Shown here in pieces: positions 30,968 through 33,181 of a stretch of DNA of 64,000 nt; position 1 is the stretch's first letter; the number at the start of each line of letters is the position of its first letter. A model generated the notes under the pieces. It saw only the letters and a program-made list of their open reading frames with translations. It had not been told where the DNA came from and did no database searches. The stretch lies in NCBI GenBank assembly GCA_013823945.1, contig PNMZ01000001.1, positions 620,001 through 684,000 on the forward strand. Direction: 5' to 3'. Source of the DNA: a bacterium (GTDB lineage: Bacteria; Armatimonadota; Fimbriimonadia; Fimbriimonadales; Fimbriimonadaceae). Position numbers and translations under genes: made by a program.

Positions 30968-31657
30968 TCACCAAGCTGGCTTATCCGTTCCCACTGGCTG
31001 GAAGAAGAAACACCCACTCGTCATTTTCTCTGGCACCATCTTGTAATCCGTTGGCTCAGATTCTTTCCCCGTCATATCGCTCAAGAGTTGGTTCAGCTCG
31101 CTCAGCATCGCCCTGTTGTAACCCGGCCAAACCTTCTGAATCACGCCATCACGATCAAAGAGATATATATAAACGGATTGCTTCGCCCCAAATGCTCGAA
31201 ATACTTTGTCATCCGTACTCGAAAGGATCGGATATGGCACCATAAAGTCCGTCTTGAACTTCTTCCCCCCTTTTGAATCAACATCTATGATCCCAAAGAA
31301 CTTCACCGCTGGCCCGTAATACAGCGACATGCTCGTCCAGTAGGGTTGAGATTCAATTGAACAAGGACATCCATCTTTAGTCATCACCAAAACCGATGGT
31401 TGACCCCCTATCAAAGCTTCTGCTGTCGCCTTCTCCCCTTCACTATCAACCAAAGAAAACTCTGGCCCTATTTTTCCCACAAAGGACTCCGCATTGACCT
31501 CCATTTCTTTAGTAACCGGATGCCGTGGAACCTCTTGAATATTGTAAGAACTACTCTCAACCCCGACCGCCATCGGTTCGCGATTCATCATCACAAATGA
31601 AACCCCTACCAAGCCAATCGTCAATACTCCAACAACAATCGGAAGAGGCTTCACCAT
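30968..31657 (-). CDS. Membrane-anchored thioredoxin-fold (redoxin) protein
   Basis: A 229-residue protein. An N-terminal hydrophobic anchor (about 5-24) is followed by an AhpC/TSA- or TlpA-like domain beginning IGPEFSLVDSEG. The active-site region reads VMTKDGCPCSIES, a C-x-C pair (Cys97, Cys99) rather than the usual C-x-x-C. IYLFDRDGVIQKVWPGYN matches the later strand of the fold. It probably acts in thiol redox chemistry on the outer face of the cytoplasmic membrane. It is divergent from the selenoprotein gene with 61 bases between them; shared regulation and redox function are plausible. Confidence 0.75.
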   Translation of the reverse strand: MVKPLPIVVGVLTIGLVGVSFVMMNREPMAVGVESSSYNIQEVPRHPVTKEMEVNAESFVGKIGPEFSLVDSEGEKATAEALIGGQPSVLVMTKDGCPCSIESQPYWTSMSLYYGPAVKFFGIIDVDSKGGKKFKTDFMVPYPILSSTDDKVFRAFGAKQSVYIYLFDRDGVIQKVWPGYNRAMLSELNQLLSDMTGKESEPTDYKMVPEKMTSGCFFFQPVGTDKPAW

Positions 31658-31718: not shown

Positions 31719-31955
31719 ATGAAGAAACTCACCATCGAATATTGCGTTCGCTGAAACTATATGCCCCACGCCGCCAGGTTGGCGGAACTCTTTCTAGCCG
31801 AATTCAATCTCGAAACCGAATACATCAAAGGCGATCACGGAATCCTTGAAGTCAAACATGGCGATGACATCGTCTACACCAATCGGCAAAATCTCGGCTA
31901 CAAACCCACAAATGAAGAGGCCCGAGCCGCGATGCAAGCCCACCTCAATAGGTAA
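31719..31955 (+). CDS. SelW/Rdx-family selenoprotein (in-frame UGA read as selenocysteine)
   Basis: Read through the TGA at 31752-31754, the frame from ATG 31719 to TAA 31955 encodes 78 residues. It matches the Rdx (SelW/SelT/SelH, PF10262) layout: TIEYC-V-R-U at residues 5-12 gives the C-x-x-U redox motif (Cys9, Sec12), then a helix AARLAELFLAEF, then GILEVKHGD corresponding to the conserved G-x-[FL]-E-V strand and turn. Many bacterial relatives have Cys at the UGA position. A SECIS-like hairpin follows the UGA. The family folds like thioredoxin and acts in thiol redox reactions, though substrates are unknown. An ordinary gene caller would report only the piece after the UGA, from 31761. Confidence 0.85.
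31755..31790 (+). promoter_or_regulatory. Bacterial SECIS-like hairpin
   Basis: CCGCC (31771-31775) and GGCGG (31781-31785) form a perfect 5-base GC stem around the loop AGGTT. The loop lies 21 bases after the UGA, within the 16-37 base window known for bacterial SECIS elements. It contains G-G-U, as does the AGGUCU loop of E. coli fdhF that SelB recognises. The stem lies inside the coding sequence, as expected for bacteria. Confidence 0.65.
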
Positions 31956-32029: not shown

Positions 32030-33181
32030 ATGAAAGCCGGAAGCGTCATCCTCGTCGGTCTCGGATTGTTCGGCACTGTTTTTGCCGCCAGTCTCCTAGC
32101 ATTTAATTTTGCCAATCTGGGTGCAGTCAATTCCAAAGCTCCCATCATCGTCAACACCAATTCTGCCCCCACCCTCGCCGCCCAAAACGCCGCCAAATCA
32201 CTCCCCGACTTCACCGCCGCTGCGGAGCAAATCCTCCCGAGCATTGTCAGTATCACGACTCTCGCGGAAGGAGAAAACTGGTTTGGCGAGCGGTTTGTCC
32301 AGCCCTCGGGCTCCGGCTCGGGAGTCGTTTTGAGCAAATCTGGACATATCGTCACAAACAATCACGTCGTCACCTCCGGTGGGCGCAGAATGGCCGATCG
32401 CATCATTGTCAAGTTCAGCGACGGCGAAACGTCTGAAGCCAAAATCATCGGCACTGACCCCCGTTCTGATATCGCAGTTCTCAAAGTCGAACGAAAGGAT
32501 CTCACCCCAATCGCGGTAGGAGATTCGGAGGCACTCAAAGTCGGTCAATGGGTCGTCGCAGCCGGAAATCCTCTCGGATTTGAACAAACCATCAGCGTCG
32601 GAATTGTCTCCAGCAAGGGCCGACCACTCAAAACCGACGACTACGCCATATTTGTTGACGGCATCCAAACTGACGCTGCCATCAACCAAGGCAACTCCGG
32701 TGGTGCCCTCTGCGACGCCCAAGGTCGCCTCGTTGGAATCAACACCATGATCGCATCTACCGACCAAGGAAGTATCGGGATCGGATTCGCAATCCCCGTC
32801 AACCGAGTCCAAGAAGTCGTAGATGAAATTCTAAAATTTGGAGCCGCGCGATACGGACGAATCGGAATCGCGGTTCGGTCAGACTCCAGCATCCTTGGTC
32901 TGAGCCAAATCCGAGACCGCCTTCGCCGCCAAGTGGGTGCCGAAAAAGAACCTCCCAGCCAAGGTGTTATCGTGAGTCAGGTCTATCAGGGCCCCGCTGC
33001 TGAAGCCGGAATTAGACCCCTCGATGTCATCACCAAAATCGACGGCAAACTGATGACTTCGACCGAAGACTACCAAGTCTTCATGGCCGACAAAAAGCCC
33101 GGGCAAACCCTGAAAATTGAATACTGGTCACGCGGTGAAACCCGATCAGCGAATCTCACCCTCGTCGACGCTCAGCTCTAA
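32030..33181 (+). CDS. HtrA/DegP-like trypsin-type serine protease with one PDZ domain
   Basis: A 383-residue envelope protease. An N-terminal hydrophobic segment (5-29) probably anchors it in the inner membrane. The S1C catalytic triad is His112 (TNNHVV), Asp147 (RSDIAVLKV) and Ser223 (GNSGGAL). Residues about 285-378 form a single PDZ domain (GPAAEAGIRPLDVITKIDG). This DegS-like layout (one anchor, one PDZ) fits a stress-sensing or quality-control protease for outer-membrane proteins. It is a single gene, with the small lipoprotein following in the same direction. Confidence 0.95.
   Translation: MKAGSVILVGLGLFGTVFAASLLAFNFANLGAVNSKAPIIVNTNSAPTLAAQNAAKSLPDFTAAAEQILPSIVSITTLAEGENWFGERFVQPSGSGSGVVLSKSGHIVTNNHVVTSGGRRMADRIIVKFSDGETSEAKIIGTDPRSDIAVLKVERKDLTPIAVGDSEALKVGQWVVAAGNPLGFEQTISVGIVSSKGRPLKTDDYAIFVDGIQTDAAINQGNSGGALCDAQGRLVGINTMIASTDQGSIGIGFAIPVNRVQEVVDEILKFGAARYGRIGIAVRSDSSILGLSQIRDRLRRQVGAEKEPPSQGVIVSQVYQGPAAEAGIRPLDVITKIDGKLMTSTEDYQVFMADKKPGQTLKIEYWSRGETRSANLTLVDAQL

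Follow-up and report, generated by a model that had tools for sequence, protein, structure and literature searches.

The window, by which we mean the whole 64,000-nucleotide stretch of DNA that was analysed, contains a short gene of the Rdx family with a TGA codon in its reading frame, lying between genes for a redoxin and a serine protease.

30968–31657, minus strand: divergent AhpC/TSA-Redoxin-type protein with a GCPC motif; the neighbour is conserved in the genus and the Cys residues are kept.
31719–31955, plus strand: predicted rdx/selW-like selenoprotein gene, 78 amino acids, stop codon TAA; based on the read-through translation, PF10262 and homologues from 37 other Armatimonadota genomes, in which the TGA is also present.
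31752–31754, plus strand: TGA within the reading frame, the predicted codon for selenocysteine at residue 12 (CVRU); TGA in 23 of 23 family homologues and 38 of 39 phylum homologues.
31761–31955, plus strand: spurious shortened open reading frame of 64 amino acids, expected from a table-11 gene caller, without the CxxU motif.
31771–31785, plus strand: putative bacterial SECIS-type hairpin, CCGCC AGGTT GGCGG, inside the coding sequence; based on folding and on covariation across 37 homologues.
32030–33181, plus strand: HtrA/DegP-type serine protease with a PDZ domain, 74 bases downstream of rdx on the same strand.

Translating the frame at 31719–31955 (plus strand) through the TGA, written as U, gives MKKLTIEYCVRUNYMPHAARLAELFLAEFNLETEYIKGDHGILEVKHGDDIVYTNRQNLGYKPTNEEARAAMQAHLNR, in which the Cys of the C-x-x-U motif is codon 9 and the TGA is codon 12 (CVRU at residues 9–12). 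The original prediction of a complete 78-residue Rdx-family protein read through the TGA at 31752 holds for the open reading frame, the TGA, the CxxU motif and the length. Pfam Rdx (PF10262) matches residues 3–61, a span that includes the TGA, with 39 bits against a curated cut-off of 22.6, and the CxxC/CxxU motif is present after the first strand. Translation table 11 leaves only a 64-residue open reading frame from the ATG at 31761, in which the CxxU motif is lost; a standard gene caller would shorten the gene, as had been anticipated, and the finding corrects this error of automatic annotation.

The best NCBIfam match is NF041051 (SelTWH_Campy; 54.5 bits, E = 1e-14). As this equivalog has a curated cut-off of 88 bits, the gene is not filed under it; it scores 30.4 bits against CXXU_selWTH (TIGR02174), under the curated cut-off of 34.2. 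Because Pfam Rdx is passed but both SelW-type NCBIfam models fall under their cut-offs, we name the gene SelW-like and regard it, from its sequence, as a relative rather than a certified member of the CXXU_selWTH model. The low NCBIfam scores are probably owed to the short, divergent form carried by the genus, which has 76–79 amino acids and lacks the ∼10-residue extension of most other family members. Two Rdx forms occur in the phylum. The short one is that of the window's genus, L023, L085 and L089, and most of these genes have TNR near the C-terminal third; the other (L052–L066) has ∼10 extra residues and FSK. The profile also matches the solved Rdx proteins with PDB codes 3dex (SAV_2001), 2fa8 (Atu0228) and 2p0g (selenoprotein W-related) across the domain, and the aligned sequences of 3dex and 2fa8 have a Cys at the position of the TGA.

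SelW-like bacterial selenoproteins are an already known kind (PMC1088965, PMC1794560, PMC9312934), and the gene in the window resembles them in its Rdx domain (pfam10262), its CxxU motif, its in-frame UGA and the hairpin immediately downstream, with a conserved G in a small loop. It also resembles Campylobacter SelW, the protein of NF041051, in its length of ∼80 amino acids and its UGA that is read through; in C. jejuni, where SelW is encoded on CJnc60, translation through the UGA has been shown by Ribo-seq and proteomics (PMC11955535). The function of the SelW/Rdx family in bacteria has been described as unclear (PMC1088965). What is new here is the lineage, Armatimonadota, together with the almost exclusive use of selenocysteine. 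Our literature search found no paper on selenoproteins in Armatimonadota, although it was not exhaustive and so is no proof of absence.

The source genome (3.16 Mb in 19 contigs, 99.8% complete) has Armatimonadetes bacterium Uphvl-Ar1 as its closest named relative (95% identity in a protein scan), and related metagenome-assembled genomes are labelled Fimbriimonadaceae. A peptide-pattern scan of contigs for relatives found only six, the patterns probably being narrow. The note that pointed to the locus had implied selenocysteine machinery in this lineage, and all four components are present in the source genome above their curated cut-offs: tRNA-Sec with anticodon UCA (selC; 73.2 bits, cut-off 47), SelB (349.6 bits, cut-off 242), SelD (354.8 bits, cut-off 125) and SelA (433.1 bits, cut-off 268). 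The absence of selB, selC or selD, which the note had named as a way to refute it, is thus not borne out. The complete selenocysteine trait is thereby documented for this genome, and tRNA-Sec was found in 48 of the 85 sampled genomes of its family.

Further in-frame TGA codons with similar hairpins behind them occur elsewhere in the genome. SelD itself (L043, contig 1, 818864–819790, plus strand) is a predicted selenoprotein, its gene having an in-frame TGA (CAGU) followed by two tandem hairpins, the hairpin behind the TGA being strong with a GTT triloop; the SelD TGA is found in seven of eight genomes of the genus and is absent from SelD of G084. An AhpC/TSA-type redoxin on contig 10 (L090, 28438–28794, minus strand) has a UxxC motif (WAFWUSSC), and its TGA is followed by a 7-bp hairpin with a GGT triloop (GGAGCTC-GGT-GAGCTCC); this redoxin, too, is probably a selenoprotein. 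Judged by the TGA codons and hairpins of rdx, selD and the L090 redoxin, at least three genes here therefore probably make use of selenocysteine. TGA-bearing PF00578 matches were also seen in G078, G079 and G083. A scan of the window for CxxU or UxxC read-through frames gave nine, the eight other than rdx having no evident family resemblance by eye.

An Rdx gene is present in 23 of the 85 family genomes, and each of the 23 has exactly one in-frame TGA. Its presence follows that of tRNA-Sec, which was detected in 22 of the 23 genomes with Rdx compared with 26 of the 62 that lack it (p = 3.9e-6 in a Fisher test that ignores kinship among genomes). The sole genome with Rdx and no detected tRNA-Sec is G032, which does have SelB and whose completeness is 88%. 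In G083, which belongs to the window's genus, tRNA-Sec, SelB and SelD are present and no Rdx gene was detected. Across the phylum, the codon at the CxxC/CxxU position is TGA in 38 of 39 Rdx genes; the single exception, L083, has TGC (Cys) at the same codon and CVPC in place of CxxU, so that the in-frame TGA aligns with either TGA or a Cys codon throughout. This distribution supports a published comment that Cys forms of SelW-like genes are few or absent in organisms that use selenocysteine (PMC1794560). We tentatively suggest that nearly all SelW-like Rdx genes kept in Armatimonadota may be of the selenocysteine form, with a conserved SECIS whose triloop begins with G; such genes would be tied to selenocysteine decoding, in contrast to the drift to Cys in many bacterial selenoprotein families.

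The hairpin behind the TGA was claimed to be a perfect CCGCC/GGCGG stem with the loop AGGTT lying 21 bases downstream. Stem and loop are present as described; the distance needs correction: counted from the TGA, the stem starts at 16 nt, and the figure of 21 nt belongs to the start of the five-base loop. The MFE fold of 31771–31785 extends the stem to 6 bp (CCGCCA/TGGCGG) and closes it with the triloop GGT, which places a G in a small apical loop just 3' of the UGA. Taken alone, this hairpin is statistically ordinary: when the amino acids are kept and their codons exchanged for synonymous ones, 12% of the recoded sequences fold equally well or better and a comparable stem arises in 22%, such a stem by the same loose rule lies behind 281 of the 2469 TGA trinucleotides in the window, and dinucleotide shuffling gives a z-score of −0.46. 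No Rfam family matched the window at gathering scores, and a loose threshold applied to the gene returned only two irrelevant weak matches. As the recoding and shuffle tests gave no significance, single-sequence folding was dropped as an argument for a SECIS element in favour of covariation.

For this, hairpin columns were counted from the TGA in a fixed register and compared among 37 of the 38 TGA genes (all except G153). Columns 21 and 33 pair in all 37 sequences through six pair types (CG 27, GC 3, UA 3, AU 2, UG 1 and GU 1), and in most rows each of the two is the third base of an alanine codon; the pairing is therefore not required by the protein. Further two-sided changes occur at columns 22–32 and 23–31 (GC to UA and CG to UA; L079 and L077, L081, L082, L087), and all 37 loops start with G. 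None of 20000 shuffles was as good as the observed pair 21–33, and in a 31-sequence alignment 95.7% of cells are paired, a share that none of 500 shuffles reached (90.4% paired after shuffling); these tests ignore kinship, but the departures from C–G are spread among several families and genera. Sliding the register of the 31-sequence alignment leaves 21–57% of cells paired, and the Cys homologue L083 lacks this stem. From these alignments, chance is no explanation for the conservation and compensatory change of the hairpin across the 37 homologues, and the SECIS assignment, weak from one sequence, gains its support from them.

Since one base change separates TGC, TGT or TGG from TGA, and since L083 does have TGC at this codon, the TGA might be a mutated or misread Cys codon in a pseudogene or a faulty sequence. 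The conservation of the TGA in independent assemblies of 38 genomes of the phylum refutes this: TGA instead of TGC or TGT as a read error, which the original prediction had named as its possible undoing, is ruled out by the homologues in 37 other genomes, and the downstream reading frame and its wobble-position pattern are kept, leaving this explanation next to no probability. Both upstream and downstream of the TGA, differences between relatives favour the third codon position, which also bears on whether translation truly starts at ATG 31761 with the upstream part non-coding. The intact 64-residue frame under table 11 would allow such a start, but its product would lack the CxxU motif and the first strand, differences upstream of the TGA fall mostly at third positions (44/33/90 by codon position) and Ile6, Tyr8 and Cys9 are invariant in an alignment of the eight closest genes; we regard a start at this ATG as extremely improbable.

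An open frame across a TGA does not itself name the residue inserted, and the UGA could be read as another amino acid through a code change or be leaky without selenocysteine. Neighbouring genes, however, terminate normally at TGA, as normal genes do in this genome, which therefore uses the standard code; the genome has the complete selenocysteine machinery, and the TGA occupies a position known for Sec/Cys exchange and is followed by a hairpin that covaries. Such a reading is very unlikely. With the gene, its conserved TGA, the machinery and the covarying hairpin all found by sequence comparison, we are highly confident in predicting a SelW-like (Rdx family) selenoprotein gene with SelB-mediated insertion of selenocysteine at UGA 31752. 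SelB with Sec-tRNA(UCA) would bind the hairpin just 3' of the UGA and selenocysteine would be inserted at residue 12; the resulting protein would have a CxxU redox site and, because of the Pfam and PDB matches, a predicted thioredoxin fold. By analogy with SelW, the product may be a small cytoplasmic thiol/selenol oxidoreductase that would cycle between a reduced Cys/Sec pair and a Cys–Sec bond, a redox role suggested by the SelW/Rdx family.

The gene had also been described as divergent from a redoxin with a C-x-C pair, and the GCPC redoxin at 30968–31657 (minus strand) fits this description. A redoxin lies near rdx in six of the seven related loci compared, with CPC kept and not replaced by selenocysteine, and the HtrA gene adjoins rdx in five of the seven. 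In three relatives (L047, L048 and L049), the redoxin and rdx are separated by a serine beta-lactamase-like gene (near 1900–2950).
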